A stretch of DNA of 64,000 nt, taken from contig NZ_QGMY01000009.1 of assembly GCF_003173355.1 (NCBI RefSeq), forward strand, positions 62,001 through 126,000. The letters run 5' to 3'. The notes under the pieces were generated by a model, which saw nothing but the letters and a program-made list of their open reading frames with translations, ran no database searches and had not been told where the DNA came from. Shown one piece after another: positions 2,668-55,416 of the stretch (the first letter of the stretch is position 1; each line of letters starts with the position of its first letter). The stretch is from Methanospirillum lacunae. GTDB lineage: Archaea; Halobacteriota; Methanomicrobia; Methanomicrobiales; Methanospirillaceae. Made by a program: the position numbers and the translations under genes.

Positions 2668-3471
2668 ATGGACCTTTCAACTAAACTCTCCAGACTTGAA
2701 GAACTCATCAGGAATAAGGCACCGATTCTTATTGCGTACTCAGGAGGAGTGGATAGTTCACTCCTGGCTGCAGTAGCACAGGAAATTCTTGGATCTGATA
2801 ACGCCCGCTGTGTCCTTGTAGACGGGCCTGAAGTTCCACGCAGAGGAGTTGCAGAAGCGATATCAAACGCAAGATCACTGGGATTAAATCTTGAGATAAT
2901 CAAGGGAGAGTCACTTTCTAAAGACCTGAAACAGATCAACCCATCAGACCGATGCAGACACTGCAAGATAGGTACATATCAAATCCTTGCAGAGGCAGCT
3001 AAACGATACGGAAGTAATTCAATCGCAGATGGAGCAAACATTTCAGATCTGGGAGAACACCGCCCGGGAATCGAGGCCTTCAGCTCATGTGGTGTGATTC
3101 ACCCTTTCATTATGGCAGAGATCACAAAACAGGATATCAGGGAGATCGCACGGTTGAAAGGACTCCCATTCTGGGATAAACCGTCATCGGCTTGCCTGTA
3201 TTCCCGCATTCCATATGGCGACGAGATAACAGACAAAAAGCTGCAGATGATAGAGGAGAGTGAAGAATTACTCACGAATCTCGGATTTAAACAAGTCAGA
3301 GTGCGTCATCACGGAAATATTGCTCGAATAGAGGTACAGCCTGAAGATATGCTCAAAATTATTGGCCTGAAAGCAGACATCGAGATGAAAATTCGTAAGA
3401 TAGGGTTCTCATATGTTACATTAGACCTTAGAGGATACCGATCAGGAAGCATGGACGAAGTGCTGTCATAG
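2668..3471 (+). CDS. larE: LarE-family ATP-dependent sulfur transferase (three-cysteine type)
   Basis: A 267-residue PP-loop enzyme of the LarE family. LarE inserts sulfur into the pyridinium precursor of the nickel-pincer nucleotide cofactor; in the well-studied bacterial enzyme the sulfur comes from its own Cys176. The PP-loop SGGVDSS is at 25-31. Cys96 and Cys99 (CRHC) and Cys176 (SSACLYSR) form the three-cysteine set known to bind a [4Fe-4S] cluster in catalytic LarE forms. No larB, larC or larA gene is in the window, so the cofactor role is not confirmed; another thiolation substrate is possible. It follows thiI closely and precedes a small unknown gene by 9 bases. Confidence 0.85.
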   Translation: MDLSTKLSRLEELIRNKAPILIAYSGGVDSSLLAAVAQEILGSDNARCVLVDGPEVPRRGVAEAISNARSLGLNLEIIKGESLSKDLKQINPSDRCRHCKIGTYQILAEAAKRYGSNSIADGANISDLGEHRPGIEAFSSCGVIHPFIMAEITKQDIREIARLKGLPFWDKPSSACLYSRIPYGDEITDKKLQMIEESEELLTNLGFKQVRVRHHGNIARIEVQPEDMLKIIGLKADIEMKIRKIGFSYVTLDLRGYRSGSMDEVLS

Positions 3472-3480: not shown

Positions 3481-3792
3481 ATGACCGAAACCGGAGAAGG
3501 ACAGGATATTACCAGAGTCATCCTGACTTCTGACCGGTTTCGGGCATGGATTGATGATCGGTCTATCGGTCACGTACGGGTCATAAAGCGAATCAACTTT
3601 TGTATAATCATCTCGGCTATACGCCAGATAGCATCGATTCAAAAGAAAGATTCTGAAAATTCCCAGACTATTCGTATATATATTCCCCGATCACTTATGT
3701 CTATCAACTCAGAAAATCTTCAGGTGTTTATTCAGTTTGCAAGAGACTGTGGAAATATCCTGATTGAAATTATAGAGATTGAAGAACTATAA
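3481..3792 (+). CDS. uncharacterised protein in the thiI-larE operon
   Basis: A 103-residue protein with no family I can name. It starts 9 bases after the larE-like stop, so it is probably co-transcribed. The sequence mixes basic N-terminal residues with a hydrophobic beta-rich middle (NFCIIISAIRQIA) and an acidic C-terminus ending IEIIEIEEL, suggesting a small alpha/beta fold. There is only one cysteine and no signal peptide. Position suggests an accessory role in sulfur transfer, which is inference only. Confidence 0.55.
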   Translation: MTETGEGQDITRVILTSDRFRAWIDDRSIGHVRVIKRINFCIIISAIRQIASIQKKDSENSQTIRIYIPRSLMSINSENLQVFIQFARDCGNILIEIIEIEEL

Positions 3793-5357: not shown

Positions 5358-6305
5358 ATGGAACAACTATACCCCCTTATCCGTTCGGTTTCTATCTTCT
5401 TTTTATTAGTTTTGTTTATTCAGATCTTAAAACGGAGAGGTTTTTTTGAAACAGGTAATACCGCAATTTTTGGAAAGGTGATTACAGAGATCATACTTCC
5501 GATTACTATTTTCTCAACGCTGGCAGTAGGAGAGATTAAACCACAATTAATTTATGCATCACTCATTTACCTTGTTGCCAGCCTCCTCATCTGTTGTATC
5601 GCCTACATTATCTGTACATTATTCCACTTTTCAAACCCGATTACAGGAACAATCGTCATTCTTGCAGGATTTGGAAGTACCTCAACTATCGCATATCCGC
5701 TTATTAGCCAGACGTATGGCATAAATAGTGAAGCAATGACAAGTGCTCTGATTATTGGTGAATTTGGATCATGTATTCCATTTTTTACAATTGGAATCCT
5801 GATTGTTGCATATTTTGGCCAAAGATCAAGAGGGAGTCTTTTTTATAATAATATAATAGCATTTTTCAGATCTCCTATCTTTATCTCTTTGATTGCTGGA
5901 TTGGTAGTTTCCCAGATTCCCACCCTTTCCACTTTAATGACATCACCATTTTTTACAAGTTTTTTTGAATATTTTAATAACGGGTTTGAAATGCTCGTTG
6001 CCATTACGATTGGTCTGATGCTTAAACCAATAAAAATCAATGATATTCTCATATATATGGCAATCACCCTCCCTCTGGCATTAATTTGTCTCCCACTATT
6101 AGTCTATGCAGGAGCAACCCTGACCCAAACACCCTCTCTGATCCGGGAAATTCTGGTAATAGAAGCGGCAGTTCCTTCAGGAACTGTAGCAGCAGTTATG
6201 GCTGAAAGATATGGATGTGACGGATCTCTGGCTTCTACTATTGTGATAATTTCGTTTTTGCTCAGCCTGGTAACGATTCCTCTGATTTCAATTACTCTTT
6301 TATAA
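5358..6305 (+). CDS. AEC-family permease (auxin efflux carrier type), copy 1
   Basis: A 315-residue integral membrane protein of the AEC (auxin efflux carrier / malate permease) family, with about ten hydrophobic segments spread over the whole length. The inner-repeat glycine motif ILAGFGSTST lies near residue 100, and a matching segment near the C-terminus has AVPSGTVAAVMAERYG, as expected for two inverted halves. The family moves organic acids or amino acids across the cytoplasmic membrane; the substrate here is unknown. It is followed after 129 bases by a second copy on the same strand, and both lie directly upstream of the nitrogenase-like operon. Confidence 0.85.
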   Translation: MEQLYPLIRSVSIFFLLVLFIQILKRRGFFETGNTAIFGKVITEIILPITIFSTLAVGEIKPQLIYASLIYLVASLLICCIAYIICTLFHFSNPITGTIVILAGFGSTSTIAYPLISQTYGINSEAMTSALIIGEFGSCIPFFTIGILIVAYFGQRSRGSLFYNNIIAFFRSPIFISLIAGLVVSQIPTLSTLMTSPFFTSFFEYFNNGFEMLVAITIGLMLKPIKINDILIYMAITLPLALICLPLLVYAGATLTQTPSLIREILVIEAAVPSGTVAAVMAERYGCDGSLASTIVIISFLLSLVTIPLISITLL

Positions 6306-6434
6306 TGAAAAAAGGTGAAATATGAAACAAAACATGTCAGATACCAGGGTCATTTTCGTACTATTTCAAAAAATAACCCCAAATAATATTTCCCGATCTC
6401 AAACAGAGGGGCATCGTTTCAGGGGCAGATTCTG

Positions 6435-7427
6435 ATGACAACTGTTATTTCACTACAGCCAATCTATCAATTTGTATTAATTGCACTCATAATCATTGGC
6501 TCAATTAAATATTTAAAATACAGAGGGTTCTTCACCGATGATGATCAGTCAGTTTTTGATAAACTAGTAACTGAATTAGCACTTCCAGCAGTTATTTTTT
6601 CTTCCCTTGCGAAACTTGAGTTTTCGATTAGTACCATCGCACCTGCTTGTGTGCTCTTTATTACTTTGTTACTGGCTTTAATTATTGCATACATTTTTTG
6701 TCGTATCTGCAAATTTTCTCGGCCGATTTCTGGGACGATAATTATGGCCTCTGGATTTGGTAGTACTGCAACAATGGCGAGTCCCCTTATTTATGAATTA
6801 TTTAGCTCACAACCAGATGTCATTCAAAAAGGGCTTACTATCGGAACATTAGGATCCGCTATTCCCTTTTTCACACTGGGAGTAATTATTGCTTCGTATT
6901 TCGGAGCTCAATATGCAGAAAGAGAGGTCAGGATATCATATACATTAAAAAACTTTTTCATGACCCCTATCTTTATCTCCTTTATTGTTGGGATACTGGT
7001 AGCTTTTCTGCTTCAAGAATTTCATATTCCAGGTACAGTATATTTTGTTGACATTTTTACTAACTTTTTCACAATTATTAGTGTATCAATGAATCTCCTG
7101 ATCTGGATTGCATTAGGCCTCATGCTTCGACCAATTAAAATAAAATTTATTATTCCCATCCTTTTCGTTATCATCTGCATTAAAATGCTATTCGAACCCA
7201 TTGTTGCAACATTATTATCTACATCTCTTGGTTTGTCACTTATTACCCAAAACCTTCTAATCTTGGAAAATGCAATGCCATCAGGTGCAATAGCCGCTGT
7301 ACTTGCAAGTAGGTACGGATGTGACAGTTCGCTTGCAGGATGGTTAATTGTTGGAACATATGTAATTTCACTTATTACCATGCCACTTGTTTTTATGGCA
7401 CTTCAAATAAATTGCATTTTTTCATAA
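6435..7427 (+). CDS. AEC-family permease (auxin efflux carrier type), copy 2
   Basis: A 330-residue paralogue of the preceding permease. Shared landmarks are ASGFGSTATMASPL in the first half, IPFFTLGVIIASYFG just after it, and AMPSGAIAAVLASRYGCD near the C-terminus. About ten membrane segments are visible. The two copies have diverged enough that they may carry different substrates or form a pair. The gene ends 370 bases before the nitrogenase-like H subunit gene on the same strand, so it may be functionally linked to that operon without necessarily being co-transcribed. Confidence 0.85.
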   Translation: MTTVISLQPIYQFVLIALIIIGSIKYLKYRGFFTDDDQSVFDKLVTELALPAVIFSSLAKLEFSISTIAPACVLFITLLLALIIAYIFCRICKFSRPISGTIIMASGFGSTATMASPLIYELFSSQPDVIQKGLTIGTLGSAIPFFTLGVIIASYFGAQYAEREVRISYTLKNFFMTPIFISFIVGILVAFLLQEFHIPGTVYFVDIFTNFFTIISVSMNLLIWIALGLMLRPIKIKFIIPILFVIICIKMLFEPIVATLLSTSLGLSLITQNLLILENAMPSGAIAAVLASRYGCDSSLAGWLIVGTYVISLITMPLVFMALQINCIFS

Positions 7428-7797: not shown

Positions 7798-8682
7798 ATG
7801 ACCGGAACCAGAAATATTGCCATTTATGGAAAGGGGGGTATTGGAAAGTCAACTACGACTTCCAATATCAGTGCAGCCCTTGCTGATAGTGGCCTGAAGG
7901 TCATCCAGATAGGATGCGACCCAAAGAGTGATTCAACCAACAACCTCCGTGGAGGAAAATCCATTCCATCAGTTCTTGATGCAATCAGGAGCGGGAAAAA
8001 GGTTGAAATTGAAGACATCGTGTACGAGGGATTTGGTGGCGTACTATGCATAGAAGCTGGAGGACCTGAACCCGGTGTCGGATGTGCAGGACGAGGTATC
8101 ATTGCTGCAATCGAGCTTCTCAGACAGAAGAAGGTCTTTGAGCAGTATAAACCGGATGTTGTTCTCTACGATGTCCTCGGCGATGTTGTCTGTGGAGGAT
8201 TCTCAGTACCAATCCGTGAAGGAGTGGCAGAACAGGTATATACGGTAACCTCCGCCGATTTCATGGCAGTGTATGCTGCAAATAACCTCTTTAAGGGTAT
8301 TAAGAAGTACGCAAACAGCGGAGGAGCCCTCTTCTCTGGCATCATCGCAAACTCGGTTTCTCTGCCAATCCACAAAGAGATCATTGATGATTTTGCAGCA
8401 CAGACCGGGACAACGATCGCTGAATATGTTCCACGATCGATCACCATCACACGGAGTGAACTTCGTGGTCAGACTGCAGTTGAGTATGATCCCGATTCAG
8501 AGCAGGCTGAGGTCTACCGCAGGCTTGCAAAAGCGATCATAACCAACGAGAAGAAGTACGTCCCTGCCCCGCTTGACGCAGAAGGGCTGAAAGGCTGGGC
8601 TGAGTCATGGTCAGACCGCCTCCTTGACAAAAAGGAAGAGGAACAGACTCACCGGTCAAAGACTGCAATAGCTGCAACATAA
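7798..8682 (+). CDS. nitrogenase iron-protein-like ATPase (NifH-like subunit)
   Basis: A 294-residue NifH homologue. Such dimers hold one [4Fe-4S] cluster and pass electrons to a catalytic partner at the cost of ATP. The P-loop GKGGIGKS is at 11-18, the switch segment CDPKSDST at 40-47, and the cluster cysteines at Cys96 (GVGCAGRG) and Cys132 (DVVCGG). Arg99, equivalent to the ADP-ribosylated arginine of NifH, is present. I start at 7798 rather than at the upstream in-frame ATG at 7735 because GGAG precedes it and the family begins just before IAIYGKGG. No PII-type nifI genes follow, unlike methanogen nif operons. The D-like subunit begins 18 bases downstream. Confidence 0.93.
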   Translation: MTGTRNIAIYGKGGIGKSTTTSNISAALADSGLKVIQIGCDPKSDSTNNLRGGKSIPSVLDAIRSGKKVEIEDIVYEGFGGVLCIEAGGPEPGVGCAGRGIIAAIELLRQKKVFEQYKPDVVLYDVLGDVVCGGFSVPIREGVAEQVYTVTSADFMAVYAANNLFKGIKKYANSGGALFSGIIANSVSLPIHKEIIDDFAAQTGTTIAEYVPRSITITRSELRGQTAVEYDPDSEQAEVYRRLAKAIITNEKKYVPAPLDAEGLKGWAESWSDRLLDKKEEEQTHRSKTAIAAT

Positions 8683-8700: not shown

Positions 8701-10257
8701 ATGGTATATAACACCAGGGAAGAGGCAGAAAGGGAACTCTATGAGAAGAAGATAGATCTCTCACAGAACACCTGCCCAAATCGTGAACAGCGGGCAAACG
8801 GTATCAATATCTTCTATGGAAAGGCAAGTGAGCTTGTTGACCAGGCAAAGTCAGGATGCCTCAAAAATCATGAGCGGGGATTTGCCCAGTCATCGGGATG
8901 TACGCTCAACTTCTACCTCTCGGTTCGTGTCGGAACCATCAGGGATTCGGCAACCATCTTCCATGCTCCGGTAGGGTGCTCGTCATCAGCACTCGGGTAC
9001 CGGGAACTCTTCAGGGGTATCCCGGTTGAGCTTGGAAGACCTGTAAACTACGACCTGCACTGGATGACCACGAACCTTCGGGACAGAGATGTGGTATATG
9101 GTGCAGGCGACAAACTCAAGAAGACTATATACGAGGCACAAAGACGGTACAATCCAAAGGCCATCTTTATTCTGACATCCTGTACAACCGGAATTATCGG
9201 TGAGGATATTGAAGGAGCAGTCGCAGATGTCCAGCCGCACATCGATGCGACCATCGTTCCAATCCACTGTGAAGGAGTCAGATCCCGGCTGGTTCAGACC
9301 GGATATGATGCATTCTGGCATGCCATTCTGAAGTACCTGGTAAAGAAACCACAGAAGAAGCAGGAAGACCTGGTCAATGTTGCAAGCATGCTCTCATATA
9401 CCTGGCAGGACAGGCTTGAAATCCAGAGACTGCTGAGCAAAGTAGGTCTTCGTGCAAACCTGATTCCTGAGTTTGCAAGTGTTGAGCAGTTCCAGCAGCT
9501 CTCTGAAGCAGCAGTGACAGCACCGCTCTGCCCCACATATACCGATTACATCTCACGTGGACTTGAGCAGGAGTACGGTGTTCCATACTTCATGTATCCG
9601 TCACCAATGGGAGTTGCAAACACCGATCAGTGGCTCAGACAGATAGGAAAACATACCGGAAAGGTTGATGAGATCGAGGCATTGATCGAGGATGAACACA
9701 AGACCTGGCTTCCAAAGCTGCAGGCAATCAGATCAGAATTCGACCGGATTGCAGCAGAGAAAGGAAGCAAAGTCAGGGTTCTCGGATCACTTGGTCAGGG
9801 AAGACTGCTTGCTCAGCTCCCGTACTTTGACGAACTCGGACTCACCTCTCCGGCAGCGATGTCACAGGACTATGACAACCTGATCCTGGAAGATCTTGAG
9901 GATGTCATTGCAAAGGTTGGTGACTTCGATCTCCTGGTTAACACCTTCCAGGCCGCAGAACAGTCACATATCACCGAGCAACTTGATCCTGATCTGACAC
10001 TCAGCTGCCCGTTCCAGGGTGGTGCATACAAGAGAGTTAAAGGATCAACCAGGATTCACGCACTTCGTGGAGATCCAGACCCCTGGAGTGCCCAGAGTGG
10101 ATACACCGGGGCAATTGCGTATGGAAACTTCCTGCTTCAGGCTCTCAAGAGTTCTGCATTCCAGAAGACCCTGAAAGCAAAGACAAAAGACAGTTACCGC
10201 GAGTGGTGGTTCAAACAGTCAAACCCGCTCTATTACATGAAGCCGGAGAGTATTTAA
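8701..10257 (+). CDS. nitrogenase component 1-like alpha subunit (NifD-like)
   Basis: A 518-residue NifD homologue. P-cluster-type cysteines are present at 67, 93 and 161 (contexts FAQSSGC, HAPVGC, ILTSC). Cofactor ligand positions are also kept: Cys277 (TAPLCPTYTDYIS) aligns with NifD Cys275 and His453 (RIHALRGD) with His442. In contrast, in the CEGVR segment starting at Cys190 the positions of NifD Gln191 and His195, important for N2 reduction, read Val198 and Tyr202. This combination excludes a plain CfbD or ChlN role and argues for a reductase with a complex Fe-S cofactor but a non-N2 substrate, as in methylthio-alkane reductase. A ribosome site AAAGGAG lies about 5 bases upstream. Confidence 0.9.
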   Translation: MVYNTREEAERELYEKKIDLSQNTCPNREQRANGINIFYGKASELVDQAKSGCLKNHERGFAQSSGCTLNFYLSVRVGTIRDSATIFHAPVGCSSSALGYRELFRGIPVELGRPVNYDLHWMTTNLRDRDVVYGAGDKLKKTIYEAQRRYNPKAIFILTSCTTGIIGEDIEGAVADVQPHIDATIVPIHCEGVRSRLVQTGYDAFWHAILKYLVKKPQKKQEDLVNVASMLSYTWQDRLEIQRLLSKVGLRANLIPEFASVEQFQQLSEAAVTAPLCPTYTDYISRGLEQEYGVPYFMYPSPMGVANTDQWLRQIGKHTGKVDEIEALIEDEHKTWLPKLQAIRSEFDRIAAEKGSKVRVLGSLGQGRLLAQLPYFDELGLTSPAAMSQDYDNLILEDLEDVIAKVGDFDLLVNTFQAAEQSHITEQLDPDLTLSCPFQGGAYKRVKGSTRIHALRGDPDPWSAQSGYTGAIAYGNFLLQALKSSAFQKTLKAKTKDSYREWWFKQSNPLYYMKPESI

Positions 10258-11606
10258 TGAGCAGTGCAGAAGCAGAATCGGCATCTGAAGATTTATCAGA
10301 GGGAAGAGCAATAGAGGCTCCTAGGTTTTCCTGTGCACTCGGGGGAGCTCTTGGAACTGCATTAGGGATTTACGGAACTGTCCCAATTCTCCACTCAGGA
10401 GCTGGATGTGGTATCGGTCAGCTTTTCGGCCAACTCTATGCAGGAGGACAGAATGCAGGTGGTCCACAGGGAGGAACCAGTACTCCCTGTTCCTCACTTG
10501 TCGAGCACCACGTGGTATTTGGCGGTGAAGAGAAACTCAAGGATCTCATCAAAGCAAGTACTGAGCTGATGGAAGGTGATCTGTATGCTGTTATCACCGG
10601 CTGTGTTCCGTCTCTTATCGGAGATGATGTAAATGCAGTTGTCAGGCCATTTAAAGATGAGAACGATATCATTTACGTGAAAACTTCCGGATTTACCGGG
10701 AATTCATATGAAGGGTACGAACTCTTCTTTGAAGCGGTGATAAACGATATCCTGAAACCGGCAGAGAAGATTCAGCTTAAGACTGTGAACATATTCGGCA
10801 TTGTTCCCTATCAGCATGTCTTCTGGAAAGGAGATGCCAAGACCATAAAAGACCTGCTTGCACGAATTGGTGTTACCGCAAACGTGTTCCTTGGCGAATT
10901 TGACGGAACAAACCAACTCAGGAACATTCCGGCAGCAGAATATAACATCGTCCTCTCAACATGGAACGGTCACCGTGTTGCAAACCTGCTCAAAGAGAAG
11001 TTTGACACACCATTCTTGTCATTCCCATCAGTTCCCATCGGACCGAAACAGACCACAGAGTTCCTCCGGACCGTCGGAAAAGCACTCAATGTCTCTGAGA
11101 AGATTGTTAAATCCGTCATTGAATCAGAAGAGAGGCGTGTATACCGGTTCATTGAGTACGGTGGTGATGCCCATATGCTTGTCAGGCCACATCCCTTCTT
11201 TGCGGTTGTAGCAGACTCAGGAACTGCCATTGGGATCACCCGTTTTCTGGTCAATGAGCTTGGATATCTGCCTGATGTCGTCCAGATAGCTGATGAACCA
11301 CCAGAGGAAGTCAGGAAAGAGATTACAAAACATCTCACCGAAGGTCTTGAAACACCGGTGAAACCAGATGTGATATTTGAGACTGATTCCCATCTCGTGA
11401 GGCAGAATCTCAAGAATCGCCCCTTCCTGTTCCTGTATGCAAGTTCTCTTGAAGCACCGACTTCATTGCAGGAATTTGGAGCAATACCGATCACAGTCTC
11501 ATTCCCTGCGATGAACAGGCTCATCTTAAACCGGACGTATGCCGGGTTTGATGGTGCTCTCACGCTCTTTGAAGAGACGGTCAGCACCTTTGTTGGCCCG
11601 CTATAA
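10257..11606 (+). CDS. nitrogenase component 1-like beta subunit (NifK-like)
   Basis: A 449-residue NifK homologue. The start at 10257 overlaps the alpha-subunit stop as TAATG, with GGAGAG just upstream; longer in-frame readings run into the alpha gene. The three beta-side P-cluster cysteines appear at 26 (RFSCALGG), 51 (HSGAGCGIG) and 116 (ITGCVPSLIGDD), and VVFGGEEKL matches the family motif. The protein therefore completes an alpha2-beta2 component 1 with the D-like subunit. The presence of this subunit separates the system from CfbCD of F430 synthesis, which has no K. No nifE, nifN or nifB gene is in the window, so cofactor assembly would have to rely on genes elsewhere. Confidence 0.9.
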   Translation: MSSAEAESASEDLSEGRAIEAPRFSCALGGALGTALGIYGTVPILHSGAGCGIGQLFGQLYAGGQNAGGPQGGTSTPCSSLVEHHVVFGGEEKLKDLIKASTELMEGDLYAVITGCVPSLIGDDVNAVVRPFKDENDIIYVKTSGFTGNSYEGYELFFEAVINDILKPAEKIQLKTVNIFGIVPYQHVFWKGDAKTIKDLLARIGVTANVFLGEFDGTNQLRNIPAAEYNIVLSTWNGHRVANLLKEKFDTPFLSFPSVPIGPKQTTEFLRTVGKALNVSEKIVKSVIESEERRVYRFIEYGGDAHMLVRPHPFFAVVADSGTAIGITRFLVNELGYLPDVVQIADEPPEEVRKEITKHLTEGLETPVKPDVIFETDSHLVRQNLKNRPFLFLYASSLEAPTSLQEFGAIPITVSFPAMNRLILNRTYAGFDGALTLFEETVSTFVGPL

Positions 11607-44514: not shown

Positions 44515-44585
44515 GCCAGAATGGCAGAGAGGCTATGCAGCTGACTGCAGATCAGCATAGCCCGGTTCAATTCCGGGTTCTGGCT
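44515..44585 (+). tRNA. tRNA-Cys (anticodon GCA)
   Basis: A full cloverleaf. The 7-base acceptor stem GCCAGAA pairs perfectly with TTCTGGC (44578-44584), followed by discriminator T, usual for tRNA-Cys. The anticodon stem GCTGA/TCAGC encloses the loop CTGCAGA with GCA. The T-arm CCCGG/CCGGG encloses TTCAATT. CCA is not encoded and there is no intron. With the ThiI-like gene in the window, U8 is a possible thiolation site. Confidence 0.95.
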
Positions 44586-44857
44586 CTGAAATATCAACTA
44601 CCATTACCGCTATTTCCAAGTTCTGATCTTTGAATATCAAAAACATTATCGCGATTTTTTAGATCTTACCCAAACATCATCACTATCATCGCTACCCCGG
44701 GATACGACACAAAATAACCATAAGAAGAAGAACCTCATCATAGTTGAGAAAATATTTCGCCTCACACTCGTCAAATTGAACTTGTTTTCTATCGTAACTC
44801 ATGAATAAGGAGTAAACATTCAACAAGCTATTATCCTCAAAATTACGAACTCTGTAT

Positions 44858-45439
44858 ATGCAACGAGTAGATACCCGGATTCTGATCCTGATACTCTGTC
44901 TTATGGCAGTCATATTATCAGCCGGCTGCACAAATCCTGACACCGGGAACCAGACAACTTCAAAAACAACAACACCATCTACTCATGTAGCCCAATCAGG
45001 TAATGAGTCATCATGGATGACCGTGCCAATAACTGATGTGATGACTGGAAAGCAGACAACCATTGAAGAACTGGCAGAAGAAGGGAAACCGGTAATAATT
45101 CATTCATTTGCAGTCTGGTGTCCGGCCTGTTCAATACAACTCCGTGAAACTGCAAAACTCCTCAAAGAAAACCCGGGAGCATACACAGTTCTTGGAATAG
45201 ATCTTGATTCACGTGAAAATACTAATATGATCAAGAGTCACATTGAGAAAAACCAGTTTGTTGGAATGTACATTGCTGCTCCTATTGAACTAACAAAGGG
45301 CTTAGTCCAGACAGTAGGACCAAAAGTTGTACAGTCACTTCCACAGACTCTGATAATATGCAATAAAAAAATCACGTATGTGGGAGATGGTGCATTCCCT
45401 GAAGAAAAACTCAAATTAATCCTGTCAGAACTCTGTTAA
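44858..45439 (+). CDS. TlpA-like thioredoxin lipoprotein
   Basis: A 193-residue exported protein. The N-terminal hydrophobic segment ends in lipobox LSAGC at about residue 27, followed by a Thr/Ser-rich linker. The thioredoxin site is SFAVWCPACSIQLRE (CxxC), with the cis-Pro in SLPQTLI. Likely attached to the outside of the membrane, acting in thiol redox. No operon partner: tRNA-Cys lies upstream and a converging operon downstream. Confidence 0.87.
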   Translation: MQRVDTRILILILCLMAVILSAGCTNPDTGNQTTSKTTTPSTHVAQSGNESSWMTVPITDVMTGKQTTIEELAEEGKPVIIHSFAVWCPACSIQLRETAKLLKENPGAYTVLGIDLDSRENTNMIKSHIEKNQFVGMYIAAPIELTKGLVQTVGPKVVQSLPQTLIICNKKITYVGDGAFPEEKLKLILSELC

Positions 45440-45538
45440 TACACAAAAAAATAAAAATCCGGAAACATCCGGAACCTTTTTGCCTCGGCCTGATACACGA
45501 AATTATTCTGTCAGATATCGATAAAACTTCAAACAAAC

Positions 45539-45811
45539 CTATCCACCCGATACGGGGGGAAAGAGTTTTATTTCATCACCATCATGAACCGGTGTTGAAA
45601 GACCATCAAGATCTTTAAACCCTGTCCCATTCACCAGGATATTCACGTACCGCTTCAATTCTCCATCCTGAAACAGAAGGGCAGAAAGACCCGGATACCG
45701 ACTCGTCAATTCAGTTATAATATCCTGTACAGTCTTGACATTGTCAAGTTCAACGTCTTTTACACCGGCTGTTTCCCGGTAATTTGCAAACAGAATTACT
45801 TTAAGAGTCAT
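45539..45811 (-). CDS. MoaD/ThiS-family ubiquitin-like sulfur carrier
   Basis: A 90-residue beta-grasp protein ending PPVSGG. The C-terminal Gly-Gly is the site adenylated and thiolated by ThiF/MoeB enzymes. VILFANYRETAGVKDVEL and FPPVSGG match MoaD. It is the last gene of an operon, 27 bases after a ThiF-like gene, its obvious activating partner. It may serve molybdopterin synthesis, tRNA thiolation or protein modification (SAMP). Confidence 0.9.
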   Translation of the reverse strand: MTLKVILFANYRETAGVKDVELDNVKTVQDIITELTSRYPGLSALLFQDGELKRYVNILVNGTGFKDLDGLSTPVHDGDEIKLFPPVSGG

Positions 45812-45838
45812 AATTATCGCCTATGTATCTTCTCTTAT

Positions 45839-46576
45839 CTATTTCAGATGTGAGCATGCAGGGCAGTGGGGATTTCGGACGATTGGAATTTCATGAAATT
45901 CCAGGTACTCTCCATCATATATCACCATACGGTTTAAAGCGAGTTGACCCACTCCAGTAATGGCCTTGATAGCTTCAGTCACCTGCAGCGTTCCAAGCAC
46001 ACCTGGCGTTGCTCCTAGTACCGGAAAGACTTCTTTTGGAGGAGCTTCGGGTACAAGACATTCAAGACACGGGGTTTTTCCAGGAATAATTGTTGTTAGC
46101 CGGCCTTCCAGACCCCAAACAGAAGCATGGATAAAGGGAATATTGTGATGAATTGCTGCTTTATTGAGAAGATACCTGGTTGGATAGTTATCTAGGGCAT
46201 CAATGATGATATCAGCGCCCTTCGTGATATCCAGGTAATTATCCTCATCTATCTTCTCCTGAAGAGCTGTTACTTTAAGAGAGGGATTAATGCCTGCAAG
46301 TTTTACACTGGCGCTCTTGACTTTATACTGGTCAACATTCTCATCCCAGTGTAATATCTGGCGGTTCAGGTTAGACAGGTCAACAACATCCATGTCCACA
46401 ATCACAAGATGACCAACTCCTGCTACTGCAAGATACGTTGCAACCGGACTTCCAAGCCCGCCACATCCTGCAATAAACACAGTGGCATCTTTCAGTTTCT
46501 CCTGCCCGGCATCACCAAATCCACGAATCAGAATTTGGCGATTATATCGCTTTTGATCGTACGGTGTCAATGTCAT
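45839..46576 (-). CDS. ThiF/MoeB-family adenylyltransferase, copy 2
   Basis: A 245-residue paralogue of 152-904. The nucleotide loop is IAGCGGLGSPVATYL near 35, and the segment DLSNLNRQILHW follows. The zinc-binding pairs are CLECL near 170 and CPAC near 238. It lies in one operon with a MoaD-like protein downstream and with a binding protein, an Fe-S protein, a G3E GTPase and an ABC ATPase upstream. Adenylates the MoaD-like partner, by inference. Confidence 0.9.
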   Translation of the reverse strand: MTLTPYDQKRYNRQILIRGFGDAGQEKLKDATVFIAGCGGLGSPVATYLAVAGVGHLVIVDMDVVDLSNLNRQILHWDENVDQYKVKSASVKLAGINPSLKVTALQEKIDEDNYLDITKGADIIIDALDNYPTRYLLNKAAIHHNIPFIHASVWGLEGRLTTIIPGKTPCLECLVPEAPPKEVFPVLGATPGVLGTLQVTEAIKAITGVGQLALNRMVIYDGEYLEFHEIPIVRNPHCPACSHLK

Positions 46577-46648
46577 ACAAACAAGTCAGTACTATGAGTT
46601 CCGTGATGATCCATAAAATCCCGGTGATCCGGGCAAATGTTGACATCA

Positions 46649-47599
46649 TCACCACCTCTGATATTCATAAATTCCGTCCCGATAATGGTGCCCTGCCAGA
46701 TGAATCGCATTCACCGCTGTCAGATCAAAGATCTCATCCGGAGAGATGCAATGTTCAGTTGAGCCAAGGGTATAGAGTGTGTGAGAAAACTCATCTGTAG
46801 AGTTGAGATATTCCAAAGGAAGGGCAGCACAATAATGCGGAGATATCCTATATGCTTCTTCTACAAAGGCTTTATCAACAAATCCACAGGTATCTGCAAC
46901 AATTTTCGCACATTCCCCTGGATTTTTGCGTATCATCTGGCATGCATCTTCATGTGCCCTTATAAATGCTGGAACAATGTTTCCCCGGCTTATCAGATCA
47001 TCGGTTGCAACAATCCCATAACTTGGGTTGAACGGCCATATGTCCTCGGCAGGAACAACAATATGTGCAGAGCCATACCGTCGAGCTGCAACCGCAAGAG
47101 CAGGAGTTCCTGCTGCTGCTGCTATCTCCCCATCTTCAAGAGCATCATGAAGAAAATCAGCCCATGCATAATTTTTTACCTGGACTGTGTTTTTTCCATA
47201 TCTGGAAAGAAGATTTCTCACAATGATATCATGGATAGAACCTTTTGGAGGGGTTCCGATGCATTTTCCTGCAAACTGATCGAGAAAACCATTCATGCCA
47301 GAAAATGAACTGAGAGGGAGTATAGAAGGACCCGCAATGATCACTGTGCCTTCAATATGACCTCCGGCAACGCATCGTGCCTGAAGTCCCCGGTCCAGAC
47401 CTATAATAAAAGGAGGAAGACCAATATACGCAATATCAAGGTTTCCTTTCTCCATTGCTCTGATTATATCAGGGCCTGATGGAAAAAGAGTCCACTCGGC
47501 TTGAATCTGATTTTTTTCCAGCAGATCAGTGCCCATTAAAATGAAAGCCGTATGGTATACTGTTGAAAGATGACCAATACGGATTCGATGAAGTGTCAT
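46649..47599 (-). CDS. periplasmic-binding-protein-like protein without signal peptide (SsuA/NMT1 type)
   Basis: A 316-residue type II binding protein. It begins MTLHRIRIGHLSTVYHTA, with no leader. MEKGNLDIAYIGLPPFIIG and DALEDGEIAAAAGTPALAVA are the two ligand-binding region motifs of the sulfonate/thiamine precursor group (SsuA/NMT1). Lack of export suggests a cytoplasmic role as enzyme or sensor. It lies 9 bases after the Fe-S protein gene. C-terminal extension has several His (HLAGHHYRDG). Confidence 0.82.
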   Translation of the reverse strand: MTLHRIRIGHLSTVYHTAFILMGTDLLEKNQIQAEWTLFPSGPDIIRAMEKGNLDIAYIGLPPFIIGLDRGLQARCVAGGHIEGTVIIAGPSILPLSSFSGMNGFLDQFAGKCIGTPPKGSIHDIIVRNLLSRYGKNTVQVKNYAWADFLHDALEDGEIAAAAGTPALAVAARRYGSAHIVVPAEDIWPFNPSYGIVATDDLISRGNIVPAFIRAHEDACQMIRKNPGECAKIVADTCGFVDKAFVEEAYRISPHYCAALPLEYLNSTDEFSHTLYTLGSTEHCISPDEIFDLTAVNAIHLAGHHYRDGIYEYQRW

Positions 47600-47608
47600 A
47601 AGAATATA

Positions 47609-48223
47609 TCAGAGAATCCTGATATCCTCCACACGGACGTGAATACCGTCCTTTTTCTGAAGAACCATGTTCACAAGAGCCGTGTGTGCGAGATCGATCA
47701 TACAATAACCAGGAAGGAAATACTGCCTGATTCCCAGAATCGGTGGTCGCTTTATCGGCTCTGCAATACCTTCAAAGGCATGGACATGGTATGCCTGAAC
47801 ATCATGTGGCTCTTCTGACCGAGCTGCCAGGGGACCAACTGTGTGACATTCAAGAACACCGGTTACCGGATTTGCAGACAGGACCCTGAGTGCATGATAC
47901 AGCGGACAACCAGGACCTGCCGGCCTTCCGGTAATTAAATCTCCAGCCTTGATATCCCATTTCTCGACAAGGTCTGCTCTGAATGGCACCACAAATTTCC
48001 GTGCAGATGGTTCACCGGGAAAAGCCTTCAATACAAAATCATACTCTTTCCCTGTGACATCAACTCCGGAATAGGAGACTGTTCTGGCAGTATGTTCTGA
48101 TGCAGTCACTGAATACGGGCAGTCTTCCTTTGATCGCTCACCAGTTATGAGAGCCTTTGAAAATTCGACACAAGTGGAGAAACCACATGCACCACAATCC
48201 CTGCCTGGAGGTTGCCAGACCAT
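47609..48223 (-). CDS. [4Fe-4S] protein with extended C-terminal domain
   Basis: A 204-residue protein. The N-terminal DCGACGFSTCVEFSKALI and a later CPYS form a C-x2-C-x4-C-x16-C [4Fe-4S] motif of the kind found in RnfB and the corrinoid Fe-S protein family. The remaining 150 residues form a separate domain with GDLITGRPAGPGCPLYHALR and a C-terminal segment of unknown fold. It lies 5 bases after the GTPase gene. Role in the six-gene set unknown. Confidence 0.78.
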   Translation of the reverse strand: MVWQPPGRDCGACGFSTCVEFSKALITGERSKEDCPYSVTASEHTARTVSYSGVDVTGKEYDFVLKAFPGEPSARKFVVPFRADLVEKWDIKAGDLITGRPAGPGCPLYHALRVLSANPVTGVLECHTVGPLAARSEEPHDVQAYHVHAFEGIAEPIKRPPILGIRQYFLPGYCMIDLAHTALVNMVLQKKDGIHVRVEDIRIL

Positions 48224-48228
48224 CTTGT

Positions 48229-48936
48229 TCAGTCACCCCGGTAGATAGGTTCTGCATTGTCAAGGGTTCTGATGATTCCAAAGTGATTTTTCCATCCAAT
48301 CTCTTTCTTACCGATGCAGACTGTACAGACTCCAAGTGGCGAAGTTCCACGGAGTGTAACAGTTCCCGCATCCTCGACATCAGGGAATGATCTGATCTTG
48401 TTTATCAGGAACCGCAGACCTGATCCCTGCAGTGCATTTGTCTCAATTATCTCAATTTCTGGAGAAGCAGAGAGAATACCCTCACGGTACACTTCCTTTT
48501 CAGCCTGTGAAACAAGATCAACTTTGGTGACTACCGCAACATCAGCAAGAGCAATCATCGGAGCCATCTTGAGTGGTGCCTTGCTTCCTGATACTGCCGA
48601 GAGAACCACTACACCAAATGACTGGGTAGTATATGGTGTGCAACGCAGGCACAGTCCTGCACTCTCGACAATTAACAGGTCTGACTCCACAGCCACAGCC
48701 CAGGCAAGGGCATCGGCAAGCACGAGGATACCCATGTGATCAGGACAGACATCCCCAGAGTAGGTTTTACGGGTTGGAATGCCAAACTCTTCCCGGAGTT
48801 CTTCATCCTCAAAAGCTCTCACAACATCAATCTTCAGGTATGACGGCTTGAATTCTCCAGAGAGTTCCTTTATAACCTGCCTGATAACTGCAGTTTTTCC
48901 AACGCTCGGTGGTCCTGCGACAATAAGAAGTTTCAT
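48229..48936 (-). CDS. G3E-family (CobW/HypB/UreG-like) GTPase
   Basis: A 235-residue P-loop GTPase. Walker A is AGPPSVGKTAVIRQV at 7-21; VESAGLCLRC near 88-98 has a metal-binding CxxC-like pair and TKVDLV near 145 the base-specificity motif. The C-terminal PLGVCTVCIGKKEIG adds a second CxxC. G3E proteins deliver nickel, cobalt or zinc to enzymes. The start overlaps the end of the ABC ATPase (ATGA). Confidence 0.85.
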   Translation of the reverse strand: MKLLIVAGPPSVGKTAVIRQVIKELSGEFKPSYLKIDVVRAFEDEELREEFGIPTRKTYSGDVCPDHMGILVLADALAWAVAVESDLLIVESAGLCLRCTPYTTQSFGVVVLSAVSGSKAPLKMAPMIALADVAVVTKVDLVSQAEKEVYREGILSASPEIEIIETNALQGSGLRFLINKIRSFPDVEDAGTVTLRGTSPLGVCTVCIGKKEIGWKNHFGIIRTLDNAEPIYRGD

Positions 48937-49736
48937 GCTGTCACCTTTGCTTTTGAAACGATCACCGGTGAATCAGAAAACCGCTCTCCGTTCCTGAGTT
49001 TTTCTCTGATATCAGAGACATATTGATCAATATCTGAAAGATTTCTGACAAGAGCCTGTTCGGATCCTGCCGGGTAAATAACCTCACGAACTGCCCCATT
49101 TTGCATGACAATTCTCCGGTCAGTGCTCAGAGCAAGCAGAGGATCATGTGTAACCAGGATTACAGCACGACGATGTTCTTTGATCCGGCTGATAACCCGT
49201 TCCTTGGCAATACCTGCATTCTCAACTTCGTCCAGAAGAAGAATGGGAGCGTCACCAATACGAATGGCATCTGCGATAAAGAGCGAACGGGTCTGACCTC
49301 CTGACAGGGCCGTCATTCGGTACTGCGGGAGAATCTTCTCACCGGTGAACTCATTTGCAAGTTCAATGGTTTCAAGAAGAACTGACTGATCTGCAATTCC
49401 CCTGGCCTTCATGTGAACAGCGAGAAAATCGACAACTTTCAGATCTGCTATACACCGGTTATTCTGAGTAATCATAACAATCGGCTTTTTTGCAGGATTT
49501 CGAACCATCTCTTCCGGTGGTTCAGCACCATTAATTCTGATAGTTCTTCGGGTGACTGTATCTCCCTGCGCCAGGACTTCAATGTCATTAATGAAAGCGG
49601 ATTTGCCCGATCCGGTTGATCCAACAATGGATACAGAGTCACCAGGCTGAATATCAATCCGGTCAAAAAATTCCTCCTGGCCATCTCTGCTCCGGCCTGG
49701 CAGGATTGTGATGATATAATTCTGGAGAGATTCCAT
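48933..49736 (-). CDS. ABC-type ATPase, likely soluble
   Basis: A 267-residue ABC ATPase. Walker A is IVGSTGSGKSAFINDI near 38-53, the signature is LSGGQTRSLFIADAI near 144, Walker B is PILLLDEVENAG near 165 and the H-loop Thr-His-Asp is near 198. The Q-loop reads ITQNNRC. No permease gene is in or near the operon. It is the first gene of the six-gene operon, with direct repeats upstream (49781-49834). Confidence 0.85.
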   Translation of the reverse strand: MESLQNYIITILPGRSRDGQEEFFDRIDIQPGDSVSIVGSTGSGKSAFINDIEVLAQGDTVTRRTIRINGAEPPEEMVRNPAKKPIVMITQNNRCIADLKVVDFLAVHMKARGIADQSVLLETIELANEFTGEKILPQYRMTALSGGQTRSLFIADAIRIGDAPILLLDEVENAGIAKERVISRIKEHRRAVILVTHDPLLALSTDRRIVMQNGAVREVIYPAGSEQALVRNLSDIDQYVSDIREKLRNGERFSDSPVIVSKAKVTA

Positions 49737-49780
49737 GAAGTACCGTCTATGTCCATAGATATAAGAGAAGAGAAAGTGGC

Positions 49781-49834
49781 AATAAAATTATCCCATTAAG
49801 GAAGATATATACAATAAATTTATCCTATTGAGAA
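49781..49834. repeat. imperfect 22-base direct repeat upstream of the six-gene operon
   Basis: 49781-49802 and 49813-49834 differ at four of 22 positions; the shared text is AATAAA-TTATCC-ATT-AG-A. The units are 32 bases apart, about three helical turns, and lie 45 to 98 bases before the ABC ATPase start. Candidate regulator sites or tandem promoters. Confidence 0.45.
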
Positions 49835-49919
49835 AAATATTGTGGCAATTTGATTATTGTCAGACGTTAGGTAATGCAGGCTGGCAATCTGCAACTATCA
49901 GAAAAATAGGTTTGAAAAT

Positions 49920-50732
49920 TTAAACGGGAGTCACAGCCTTGACTATCATTATCAGGGCCATTAGTCCCACCGAGACACCTAGCATCCATCTGATCGTCAC
50001 GGGGGAAAAATAGGGAGATAACCTAACACCGATTGCGGCACCTAAAAAGACTCCAATTGCAGTACTAAAGAGAAAAGGAAGACTCACGTGACCAAGACAA
50101 AGACTGGTTGCAGCAGCTCCTGATGAGGTTATTATGATAGATGCAAGGGAGATGATGACCGCCTCATGGATCTGAATTTTTCTGGTAATCAGTGCAGGAA
50201 CGAAGATTATCCCTCCTGAAATCCCGGTTAAACCACTAACCAGTCCCCCAAGACATCCAATAGAATACAGAAAGCGATTTGTGATACACTTCTTTCGAAC
50301 ATTTTTTTCTGATTCCTGATGCCGATTACTTGACAAAATCTTCAACCAGACATATGTACCTTCATTCCAGAGCGTAAGTCTGAATGCCATGATCAGAAGA
50401 AATAACCCAAATATACCAGTTAATGCCCATCCTTGTAAAAATTGAACACTATATGAACTCAAAATAGATGCCGGAAGAGAAAATATAATTATTCGAAAAA
50501 TGATTGAAAGATGCTCCTTTACTTTATCAAACTGAAAAAGAGTTGCAGATAGTGTGGTACATATTGTAGCTGTAATACTAGTTCCAACAGCGATTTCTGG
50601 AGTAAGGCTAAAAACCAGCGTATACATCGGAACGAGGATAAACCCGCCACCAAGACCGATGAGTACAGATAGAATTCCCACAAATAGTGACCCGATTCCA
50701 GCAAGAATAAGATCTGGTGAAAGATATATCAT
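49920..50732 (-). CDS. TSUP (TauE/SafE) family permease
   Basis: A 270-residue membrane protein with about eight segments. The two halves have the family glycine motifs, GIGSLFVGILSVLIGLGGGF and GGLVSGLTGISGGIIFVPAL. TSUP proteins move sulfite, sulfonates or related sulfur compounds. It may supply sulfur substrates given the neighbouring sulfur-handling genes, but this is inference. Not co-directional overlap with the operon: a 183-base gap separates them. Confidence 0.87.
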   Translation of the reverse strand: MIYLSPDLILAGIGSLFVGILSVLIGLGGGFILVPMYTLVFSLTPEIAVGTSITATICTTLSATLFQFDKVKEHLSIIFRIIIFSLPASILSSYSVQFLQGWALTGIFGLFLLIMAFRLTLWNEGTYVWLKILSSNRHQESEKNVRKKCITNRFLYSIGCLGGLVSGLTGISGGIIFVPALITRKIQIHEAVIISLASIIITSSGAAATSLCLGHVSLPFLFSTAIGVFLGAAIGVRLSPYFSPVTIRWMLGVSVGLMALIMIVKAVTPV

Positions 50733-50986
50733 GGCACCAAGGGTTTTTAACAGGAATTATTACTGATTTTAAACGAATGGACTTTTTTTTAAACCGGAAG
50801 AGAAGGATAACTCCATCCGGCTTATAATGCAAAGGCGACTGATCCGAGGTAACGCAACGGCATAGATACATCCAGAGCCGATATCTGCGATGTTCAGATA
50901 CGACCAGTTGAATATTGATAATCCCGGGGTCCAGTCCGGGATCATCCCTTAGAGGTGTGATGTTCTGTGATGAGTGAAAACGTCTT

Positions 50987-51214
50987 TCAGTGGTGACAGT
51001 AATCTCCTCTGATAAGTTCCCACGGGTAGATATATGCAATCATGTTATCTCCTGCATCCAGGAATGATTCAGGAGAATCACGGGCAGATAGCGTATATGC
51101 TCCCGCTCTGGATTTGACATAATTCATGAAATCTCTCCTGTGATTCACGATTGTGAACACATCATATTGATCCTTCCCAAACATAATATGCATTGTATCG
51201 GCAGTTCTTACCAT
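50987..51214 (-). CDS. small uncharacterised protein with PxELxRGxYC motif (second copy)
   Basis: A 75-residue protein whose N-terminal half has VFTIVNHRRDFMNYVKSRAG and whose C-terminus has YPWELIRGDYCHH. The latter matches the small protein at 1043-1237 (YPRELKRGNYCWH). The minus strand downstream of its stop, to about 50800, keeps an open protein-like frame with IPDWTPGLSIFNWSYLN, so it may be one part of a longer decayed gene. Confidence 0.45.
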   Translation of the reverse strand: MVRTADTMHIMFGKDQYDVFTIVNHRRDFMNYVKSRAGAYTLSARDSPESFLDAGDNMIAYIYPWELIRGDYCHH

Positions 51215-51309
51215 GGATCCAGTTCCATCTGCCGTTTGTGATAGATTAATTCAATATCCAGTGAAATTTATCGCCGCATAAATACTTTAAGTGGAGTTGT
51301 ACCAGAGTT

Positions 51310-52578
51310 ATGATCTCTATCCTGCTCGTAGATGATGAACCCGTTCTGTTAGATCTAGGATCCTTCTACCTGACACAGCGTGAGCATTTTACCGTTGATA
51401 CCGCATCAAATGGAAAAGAAGCCCTGGAACGGTTGGAAAAACGGCCATACCAGATCGTAGTATCGGATTACGACATGCCATACATGAACGGTATCGAACT
51501 GCTCAGGGAAGTAAAGCAACGGTCACCAAACCAGCCATTTATTATCTTTACCGGAAAGGGAAGGGAAGAGATAGTAATCGAAGCCCTGAATCTTGGTGCA
51601 GATTTTTATCTCCAAAAAGGGGGAGATGCAAAGGCTCAGTATACTGAACTTGCACACAAATGTCGAAGGGCAATCGAACGAAGACAGGCACAGGACCAGA
51701 TACGACACCTTGCAAGGTTGTATTCGCTCCTTTCACGAGTCAATAAAGCAGTATACCAGATCAGATCACGTGATGATCTCATAAAGGAAGTCAGTCATAT
51801 TGCTATTGATCAGGGAGGATTTAAGGCAGCATCTGTTTGTATGCTCCATCCCATATCCAACCTGCCCGAAATTGTTGCTTACGATACTTCACCGGAGATC
51901 CTGGGGAAGACAACAGAACCCTTCATAAGCCCGGACTCTGTTCCAACTCTGCATACTCTTAAAGAAGACCGATTTCATGTCTGTTCAGACAACAGACGTT
52001 ATCCACATGAAGAACCGTATGGCCGTGCTCTTTGTGCAACAGGGTTTCTCACCAGTGCGTCATTTCCGCTCAGAGTTAGTGATGGATTAATCGGAGCACT
52101 CACACTGCATTCTGATGAGGCTGACTTTTTTAGTGAAGAAGAGGTGCTCCTCATGATGGAAATTACAGAAAGTCTATCACTGGCATTTGAACTCATGGCA
52201 CAGGAACAGGAAAAAGAACAGGTTGCAGATAGACTGAACATGATGCTCAGTGCTATAGAGAGTGATAATGATGCATTCTTCATAATCGATACTAAGGGAA
52301 CTATCCAATATGCAAATCATGCAGCACGACTGATTGTATCAGATGAGTGCAAAGATTTCAAATCACACCAATACAATATCTCCAGTACCGGTCTCTTGAT
52401 TTCCAGGGAGGTTTCTCAGTTGGAACACCAGGTACCGGAAGATATCATGACAAAACATGATACTGAATCATATAATCCTGGAAAGACAAAACCGGTGCAT
52501 CCAAGCCTTTCGGTAAGATCATTTGATCATGACAACTGTCGATATTTCCTTGTTCATGTGAAAAAGGAGACAAATTAA
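51310..52578 (+). CDS. response regulator with REC, GAF and PAS domains
   Basis: A 422-residue signalling protein. The REC domain (about 1-120) starts ISILLVDDEPVLLDLG and has the phospho-acceptor Asp in VVSDYDMPYMNG and the conserved Lys in FYLQKGGD. A GAF domain at about 135-295 and a truncated PAS domain at about 310-415 follow. There is no DNA-binding or enzymatic output domain, as in many archaeal regulators. The cognate kinase is not evident. Confidence 0.88.
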   Translation: MISILLVDDEPVLLDLGSFYLTQREHFTVDTASNGKEALERLEKRPYQIVVSDYDMPYMNGIELLREVKQRSPNQPFIIFTGKGREEIVIEALNLGADFYLQKGGDAKAQYTELAHKCRRAIERRQAQDQIRHLARLYSLLSRVNKAVYQIRSRDDLIKEVSHIAIDQGGFKAASVCMLHPISNLPEIVAYDTSPEILGKTTEPFISPDSVPTLHTLKEDRFHVCSDNRRYPHEEPYGRALCATGFLTSASFPLRVSDGLIGALTLHSDEADFFSEEEVLLMMEITESLSLAFELMAQEQEKEQVADRLNMMLSAIESDNDAFFIIDTKGTIQYANHAARLIVSDECKDFKSHQYNISSTGLLISREVSQLEHQVPEDIMTKHDTESYNPGKTKPVHPSLSVRSFDHDNCRYFLVHVKKETN

Positions 52579-52589
52579 GGGTTTTTAAG

Positions 52590-52892
52590 TTACTTCTTTT
52601 CAATTAATGCCAGAATATGACCAGCAGTCTTAAAATTCGGTCGTTCTTCTTTTTGTACAATCTGGTAAAATTCACAATTCAGACAGTTACCAAGTTTTTG
52701 AGCATGGGTACCCTGTACCTTCCCCCCACATAACGTTCCGGTGATTGCCCAGCACGCTCGACCTCCTTGTGAACCACTGTTCACTCCATCAACCCGCGAC
52801 TCAACAGTAGCAGGACAAACACCTAGTTCTTTAACCTTCGCGCCCCCAGGCTGACGACCACATTTCTTAAATTCCCAACAATTTATTTTCAT
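52590..52892 (-). CDS. two-CW domain protein, copy 1
   Basis: A 100-residue cysteine-rich protein. It has two related Cys-Trp segments, NCWEFKKCGRQPGG and RACWAITGTLCGG, each with later cysteines (GVCPA, GNCLNCEF), probably a metal- or cluster-binding fold. Function is unknown. A close copy lies 166 bases upstream (53059-53367). Confidence 0.78.
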   Translation of the reverse strand: MKINCWEFKKCGRQPGGAKVKELGVCPATVESRVDGVNSGSQGGRACWAITGTLCGGKVQGTHAQKLGNCLNCEFYQIVQKEERPNFKTAGHILALIEKK

Positions 52893-53058
52893 CCAGAATT
52901 CCTCAGTGAAATACCACGTAGATCATAACTTAATTTAGGGACAGTATCATGACAGAGATGAGAAACCATACAATTGAAAACCAGTAGATTCTACGTACAT
53001 GTATCGGGGTAGAATTACTTTAGGATATTTATGAAAAAAAGTGGCTTATCTTGTCATC

Positions 53059-53367
53059 CTATTCTTCATCTCTAATGAGGGATAGAATATAGCCGGCAGT
53101 CTTAAAATTCGGTCTCTCTTCTTTTTGTACAATCTGGTAGAAATCGCAATTCAGACAGTTACCCATTTTGGATGCATGGGTGCCCTGTACCTTCCCCCCA
53201 CAAAACGTTCCTGTAATTGCCCAACAGGAGCGGCCACCGTTTAATCCGCCGTTAACCCTGTCAGTACGTGATTCCACCGCAGCAGGGCATACACCAAGAT
53301 CCTTAACTTTCTCTCCGCCGGGCTGACGACCACACTTCTTAAATTCCCAACAGTTTTGTTTACTCAT
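53059..53367 (-). CDS. two-CW domain protein, copy 2
   Basis: A 102-residue near-duplicate of the preceding gene, with NCWEFKKCGRQPGGEKVKDL and RSCWAITGTFCGGKVQGTH, all eight cysteines conserved. The pair clearly arose by tandem duplication. Each has its own upstream region, so they may be separately expressed. Function unknown. Confidence 0.78.
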   Translation of the reverse strand: MSKQNCWEFKKCGRQPGGEKVKDLGVCPAAVESRTDRVNGGLNGGRSCWAITGTFCGGKVQGTHASKMGNCLNCDFYQIVQKEERPNFKTAGYILSLIRDEE

Positions 53368-53620
53368 AACTCTGTCCTGATACTTTCATCGTACCATTAT
53401 TATGCTTCCATTCCGGCATGAAGTGGATAAAATCCGGGCGGATTGAAGACACGTGTAATCTATTATAGAAACACATGACGTGAAAAGATCTGGGATGCGG
53501 CAAAACCCGCTGTAATCTTCTTATCCCTTTAATAATTGCTATCACAGGTACAAATTGACTAAAAATAATCCAAATAATATCGCGAAACATGGGGGATGAG
53601 GGGCAACCCCTCAATCTTTT

Positions 53621-53909
53621 TCACCCCATGATCACCGGACGGACGAGATCCGCAATACTGTAAAGACTCTGCCTGGCGTCTATGTAACTGAGACGCTCTT
53701 TGAGCAAAGCATTGGTTTTCAGACGCCTGATTGCATAACGCACTGTCCGCGGAGGCAGTCTGGTTTTTTCGATAATGTCTTTCTGGGTGAGAGGCTCACC
53801 CGTCTCAAGCACCTTAAACACCAGTTTTGCTGATGGAGGCAGGCGCTCGATTGTTATCTCGTCATAGTCTTCTGCCTCAGTAGAGGCAAAAACGATCCCT
53901 TCTCGTCAT
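53621..53909 (-). CDS. MarR-like winged-helix regulator with a probable frameshift near its start
   Basis: The clear part, read from a GTG at 53821, is FKVLETGEPLTQKDIIEKTR and LPPRTVRYAIRRLKTNALL, a short winged helix. The same frame stays protein-like upstream (EITIERLPPSAKL) to 53905 without any start codon. An ATG at 53907-53909 is one base out of frame; removing one base from the A-run at 53888-53892 (T-run on the coding strand) gives a smooth N-terminus, MTRRDRFASTEAEDYDE. Product of about 95 residues if intact. Whether this is decay or an indel error is open. Confidence 0.6.
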
Positions 53910-53979
53910 AGTGACTATACATATGTTATATCCGGAGCTAGATAAATGTTCACAATTGTGAATATGCGATAATGATGCC

Positions 53980-54207: not shown

Positions 54208-54291
54208 TCATCTGAAACAGATTTGAGTGAGAAAAGAAATAGAGATCTTGTTTATGGTTATTATTACCCATATCTGTGAGAGTTCCCATCA

Positions 54292-55293: not shown

Positions 55294-55416
55294 ACCTCAA
55301 ATCTGGAATCTTAAAATAATCCGGCCCTGTTGGGTACATTTAATATGTGTAACACTCTGGTCAGAAGAGAGAACCGATACAGGCAATCAATGCCGCATCG
55401 GTAAGATTCTAAAAAA

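Follow-up and report, generated by a model that had tools for sequence, protein, structure and literature searches.

Organization of the locus

The window, that is, the whole analysed stretch of 64,000 nucleotides from Methanospirillum lacunae, contains an intact HDK operon of nifH-like, D and K genes (Table 1). The ATG of K overlaps the stop codon of D (TAATG), and the H protein has the P-loop and the two [4Fe-4S] cysteines, at residues 96 and 132 when numbered from the ATG at 7798. A longer alternative start for H, TTG at 7735, appears in the ORF listing; the ATG at 7798 has GGAG ahead of it. H scored 387 bits with TIGR01287, under the 394 cut-off, and in the profile search D and K fell under every nitrogenase equivalog cut-off, with comparable scores of D for the NifE and NifD profiles. 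A copy of D with 93 % identity was found in one Methanospirillum MAG contig. Complete NifDKEN is encoded on another contig of the M. lacunae genome, and its NifD has the usual residues. Immediately upstream of H are two permeases of the auxin-efflux-carrier family (5358–7427), which are not kept in the closest relative (G207).

Table 1. Features of the operon and its surroundings, in positions of the window
Feature	Position	Strand	Description
LarE-type sulfur transferase	2668..3471	+	TIGR00268, 287 bits (cut-off 150)
c2, small conserved protein	3481..3792	+	~100 aa; upstream of the operon; co-occurs with the operon
nifH-like reductase component (H)	7798..8682	+	294 aa; PF00142, E=1.7e-100
D subunit, catalytic alpha-like	8701..10257	+	518 aa; PF00148, E=2.2e-62
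D P-cluster ligands, predicted	8899..9183	+	Cys67 (8899), Cys93 (8977), Cys161 (9181)
Segment L197 V198 Q199 T200 G201 Y202	9289..9306	+	versus NifD Gln191/His195 and MarD His194/Trp195/Phe199
Cys277, predicted cofactor ligand	9529..9531	+	equivalent to NifD Cys275, MarD Cys270
Cys436, possible extra ligand or proton donor	10006..10008	+	equivalent to MarD Arg428, NifD Gly424
His453, candidate second cofactor ligand	10057..10059	+	invariant in clade A, the G582 paralogue and Ca. Chlorohelix
K subunit, beta-like	10257..11606	+	449 aa; PF00148, E=9.5e-65
K P-cluster ligands, predicted	10332..10604	+	Cys26, Cys51, Cys116 from ATG 10257 (10332, 10407, 10602)

Predicted cluster ligands and active-site residues

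The numbering of MarD (9fmg) was recovered exactly from the PDB alignment, and the residues of the window protein were placed against the ligand set published for MarD, including that of its P-cluster (PMC12552129). The predicted P-cluster ligands of D, Cys67, Cys93 and Cys161, correspond to NifD Cys62, Cys88 and Cys154 and to MarD Cys66, Cys91 and Cys158 and are invariant among the aligned relatives. In the alignment of K relatives, Cys26, Cys51 and Cys116 match MarK Cys32, Cys56 and Cys121, and all six P-cluster cysteines are present in D and K.

A sequence-only reading of the locus had placed Cys277 and His453 of D at the positions of NifD Cys275 and His442, and Val198 and Tyr202 at those of Gln191 and His195. 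Its residue numbering is exact (Val198, 9292–9294; Tyr202, 9304–9306; Cys277 and His453 as in Table 1). The placement of Cys277 is borne out, as the cofactor cysteine stands opposite it in all 32 relatives of the alignment, which include NifD and Mar-type sequences. That of Val198 and Tyr202, within D residues 190–204 (9268–9312), was recovered by MAFFT and by two profile–profile alignments. A shifted alignment near residues 190–202 was checked for as a source of error and can be dismissed, since the stretch from C190 to G201 runs without a gap in the profile–profile alignments to both NifD and MarD. In these alignments Val198 also faces MarD Trp195, and Tyr202 faces MarD Phe199. The neighbouring Gln199, which had escaped the earlier reading, is invariant. 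On the homocitrate side, Val198 and Phe438 stand in place of NifD Gln191 and Lys426. Three other NifD residues, Val70, Arg96 and Arg359, have their counterparts in V75, R101 and R368; for the roles of NifD Lys426 and Arg96/Arg359 we assume what is general nitrogenase knowledge.

The equation of His453 with NifD His442 is only approximate. The two residues lie in the same loop, and all 19 clade members as well as two deep relatives (50 and 45 % identity) have His453, but the profile alignment sets Leu455 opposite His442, with His453 two residues earlier. Across D, 241 of 518 positions are invariant in the 19 clade members, falling to 129 once the deep relatives join. Between residues 430 and 470, only P430, D431, P437, F438, G440, H453, R456, D458, Q465 and G470 survive this extension, and His453 is therefore the sole cysteine or histidine there that is kept throughout.

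MarD binds its cluster via His429 in Loop I (PMC12552129), a position held in the window protein by Pro437, directly after Cys436. All 19 clade A sequences and Ca. Chlorohelix have this cysteine; the G582 paralogue has Ala in its place. Neither Cys436 nor the use by Mar of a histidine from another loop had figured in the sequence-only reading.

Two AlphaFold models of D (mean pLDDT 81.6 and 84.9) both had MarD as their best fold match (Foldseek TM 0.79/0.87, then 0.82/0.90), followed by NifD. Confidence in the loop is low, with residues 437–455 below 50 in the first model and block means of 63–66 in the second. In the second model, which was built on a deeper alignment, strands 432–435 and 448–451 end just before Cys436 and just before His453, so that His453 would occupy, within a low-confidence stretch, the topological place of NifD His442. 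As far as this loop can be modelled, the strand ends are compatible with Cys436 and His453 both facing the cluster.

Family and distribution

The best sequence relatives of solved structure were MarD for D (9fmg_A, E=1e-70) and MarK for K (9d9u_C, E=6.8e-87). In the trees, clade A, to which the window operon belongs, forms one group with the G582 paralogue and Ca. Chlorohelix, supported at 100/100 (D tree) and 100/98 (K tree). The Mar clade is separate (99/98 and 97/91, respectively), Nif also stands apart, and the D and K trees agree. Membership spans methanogens, other archaea and Ca. Chlorohelix (Chloroflexota). The distribution is patchy. Of 232 genomes in the class, 10 gave matches, two sister-clade matches included, and further clade members occur in presumed Methanosarcina and relatives. 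The window enzyme is thus assigned to a sister family of Mar, which would work like Mar but lacks Mar's own hallmarks.

A search of the open literature returned no published function for clade A. By description, the 'Green clade' of Dos Santos et al. 2012 (PMC3464626) is similar in occurring in archaea and in having three P-cluster cysteines per subunit and Cys275; His442 is reported to be absent from its proteins, and their function is unnamed there.

Cofactor supply

NifB was sought in 17 genomes, of which 15 carry all or most of an intact clade A operon and two have a broken or partial copy or the sister clade only. It is encoded in all 17 and passes the TIGR01290 cut-off in 15. In four operon carriers, namely G468 (closed), G080 and G114 (both 99 % complete) and G078 (90 %), no PF00148 match was found in the score range of NifDKEN. 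A FeMoco made by NifEN is therefore unlikely, and a homocitrate-containing FeMoco was rejected on the same ground. Since NifB is always encoded and NifDKEN sometimes absent, the pattern points to a simpler, iron-only precursor cluster; by analogy, an iron-only NifB-derived cluster, as in Mar, would be the simplest reading.

The presence of NifB was nevertheless rejected as proof of the cofactor. Methanogens also need NifB for the MCR activation complex (PMC12552129), which makes its presence in these organisms permissive rather than diagnostic. Ca. Chlorohelix offers the stronger case for cofactor supply, with NifB and NifX genes in the same cluster.

Sulfur genes near the operon

The cluster of the Ca. 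Chlorohelix relative (45 % identity) comprises NifB, NifX, H, D, K, O-acetylhomoserine sulfhydrylase (MetY; TIGR01326, 672 bits, cut-off 495) and binding proteins of the SsuA/TauA type. On the Ca. Chlorohelix plasmid (L091), a single MetY gene has a NifB-HDK set of Mar type on one side and a clade A set on the other.

In four archaeal genera (g1, g12, g27 and g87), no more than 6 kb separates MetY from the D gene, against a chance expectation of about 1 % or less each. Counted by genome, full-length copies at this distance occur in G158, both genomes of g27, four presumed Methanosarcina-group genomes and one of the three from Methanospirillum, with a per-genome chance of about 1 %. MetY in the window genome is 59 kb downstream of the operon on the same contig; G197 and G468 show no MetY linkage, the nearest full-length copy in G197 being ~540 kb off. 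A general sulfur island could account for this co-location.

Importers of the SsuA type lie next to clade A or sister operons at several loci (L027, L032, L066, L083–085 and L088), and no ABC importer adjoins the operon in the window genome. The window itself also has ThiF, ThiI, LarE, TauE and SsuA-like genes. All three Methanospirillum genomes with clade A have the LarE-type gene close to the operon; in genus g27 it is more distant. The stretch 44515–63050 contains tRNA-Cys, a second ThiF, a PP-loop ATPase, a cysteine-desulfurase-like class-V aminotransferase, SsuA/NMT1-like binding proteins (46649–47599 and 56427–57500) and TauE (49920–50732).

The small protein c2 is encoded by 8 of 9 clade A genomes and by 4 of 223 others of the class (hypergeometric p=2e-11). 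Other copies often lie near MetY. It had no Pfam match and no significant PDB match, and is likely a new partner in sulfur metabolism.

In G582 (C57:64000–116000, L083–L085), an island combines four nitrogenase-like DK pairs with several importers of the SsuA type. It also contains NifB and NifX-like genes, genes for radical SAM/B12 proteins, and a double-cubane reductase together with its activase.

Proposed function and alternatives

We consider it probable, though far from certain, that HDK is a reductase driven by ATP, in which a P-cluster and an iron-only cluster derived from NifB serve to cleave a C–S bond of an organosulfur compound for sulfur assimilation. The proposal draws on what can be read from sequence, namely the operon, fold, P-cluster cysteines, Cys277, loss of the N2-reducing residues, clade and neighbourhood; the identity of the cluster, its ligation by His453 and, from kinship and context, the C–S cleavage are what we infer. 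The H dimer, with one [4Fe-4S] cluster, would deliver electrons to D2K2 in an ATP-driven manner. The electrons would then pass via the P-cluster to an [Fe8S9C]-type NifB-derived iron-only cluster in D, whose ligands would be Cys277 and probably His453, with a possible contribution from Cys436. There the C–S bond of a small organosulfur compound would be reductively cleaved, and the thiol, sulfide or sulfite product would enter sulfur assimilation, for example through MetY. Polar compounds imported by ABC transporters, such as sulfonates and methylthio-acids, seem likelier substrates than volatile thioethers.

The earlier suggestion of a FeMo-co-like or simpler cofactor and of a substrate other than N2, perhaps with a C–S bond, accords with the best match to MarD, the P-cluster cysteines and Cys277, NifB in genomes without NifDKEN, and the nearby sulfur genes; it needs amending in that the enzyme is not simply another Mar, as Arg428–His429 and Trp195 are absent. 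In a bolder form, which we regard as possible but speculative, clade A would represent a third mode of holding a NifB-type carbide-iron cluster: Cys277 and His453 would bind it, and Cys436 would serve as a further ligand or as proton donor. These reductases of methanogens and Chloroflexota would remove sulfur from an organosulfur compound that is taken up by the cell and is not a substrate of any known nitrogenase relative; methyl-coenzyme-M-like and sulfonate compounds would be candidates.

A rather unlikely alternative is a sulfonate reductase with its own cluster chemistry, resembling isethionate reductase in function and freeing sulfite or sulfide from a sulfonate taken up by the cell. Binding proteins of the SsuA/TauA type are repeatedly found next to the family, and a nitrogenase-like isethionate enzyme exists: IsrBHDK of Rhodobacter capsulatus is likewise an HDK system in sulfur assimilation, with an SsuCAB importer (PMC11423573). 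However, IsrD has a single P-cluster cysteine and no Cys275, and its radical SAM partner is not NifB-like (PMC11423573). The window protein has every one of these cysteines, and identity with Isr was rejected on the cysteine pattern. Moreover, NMT1/SsuA-type binding proteins serve many ligands and here score under the SsuA cut-off.

Slightly less likely still is a true MarHDK that would convert volatile thioethers (dimethyl sulfide, methylthioethanol) to methanethiol. MarHDK of Rhodospirillum rubrum (PDB 9fmg, 9d9u; PMC12552129) shares with the window operon its layout, fold, six P-cluster cysteines, a cofactor cysteine (Cys270), NifB-type maturation and links to MetY, which lies nearby in several lineages, and MarDK is the top match in both sequence (34 % identity for D) and fold. 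On the other hand, Arg428–His429, a hallmark kept in the Mar-type sequences of Treponema and Chlorohelix, is replaced by Cys436–Pro437; around S2B, Trp195 gives way to Val198 and His194 to Leu197, and His375 is not conserved, while the window protein has the invariant His453 and Cys436 and a longer loop. In the D and K trees alike the clade stands apart from Mar (support 100/100 and 100/98), and relatives of the window operon have SsuA-type importers nearby. Ca. Chlorohelix carries both Mar-type and clade A sets, and the two are therefore not redundant. True Mar membership was rejected on the hallmark residues and the trees.

Reduction of N2 by an alternative or Group IV-A 'Nfa'-like nitrogenase is very improbable. 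The fold, P-cluster and cofactor cysteines, a histidine near the place of His442, though two residues off in the profile alignment, and the Val70, Arg96 and Arg359 positions are shared with Mo-nitrogenase NifDK, and Endomicrobium has been reported to fix N2 via a Group IV enzyme without NifEN (PMC9147875). However, identity to NifDK is 20 %, some carriers are without NifEN, the host already has a complete NifDKEN with an NifD that keeps the N2-reducing residues, and the gene context is one of sulfur, not nitrogen; a nitrogenase was rejected because Gln191, His195 and Lys426 are replaced. Least probable of all is a NifEN-like scaffold for cofactor assembly: despite similar NifE and NifD profile scores, a common fold and a cysteine equivalent to Cys275, D clusters with Mar and not with NifE in the tree, comes with an H of its own and is part of a complex with six P-cluster cysteines (NifE has neither its own reductase nor a P-cluster role), and G468 has no other intact client, so that the scaffold was rejected by the tree and the dedicated H.

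Implications

To our knowledge, nitrogenase was until recently thought to be the sole enzyme with these clusters, and Mar is the first relative shown to carry them but not to fix N2. If the proposal is correct, clade A would be a second non-N2 family with a changed ligand set, and would show how one and the same cluster is adapted to different reactions by the surrounding protein. The family is present in presumed Methanosarcina and in methanogens without nitrogenase, and would extend the anaerobic sulfur cycling of methanogens by an organosulfur route; the residues named above are open to test.

Several clade A D genes contain stop codons (L041/L051 in G506, L077 in G638 and L078 in G642, presumed Methanosarcina-group genomes), which suggests a dispensable function. 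In G158 (C1:2062692–2081495; L026, L027), three clade A D genes lie within 20 kb, one of them directly followed by an SsuA-type ABC transporter.
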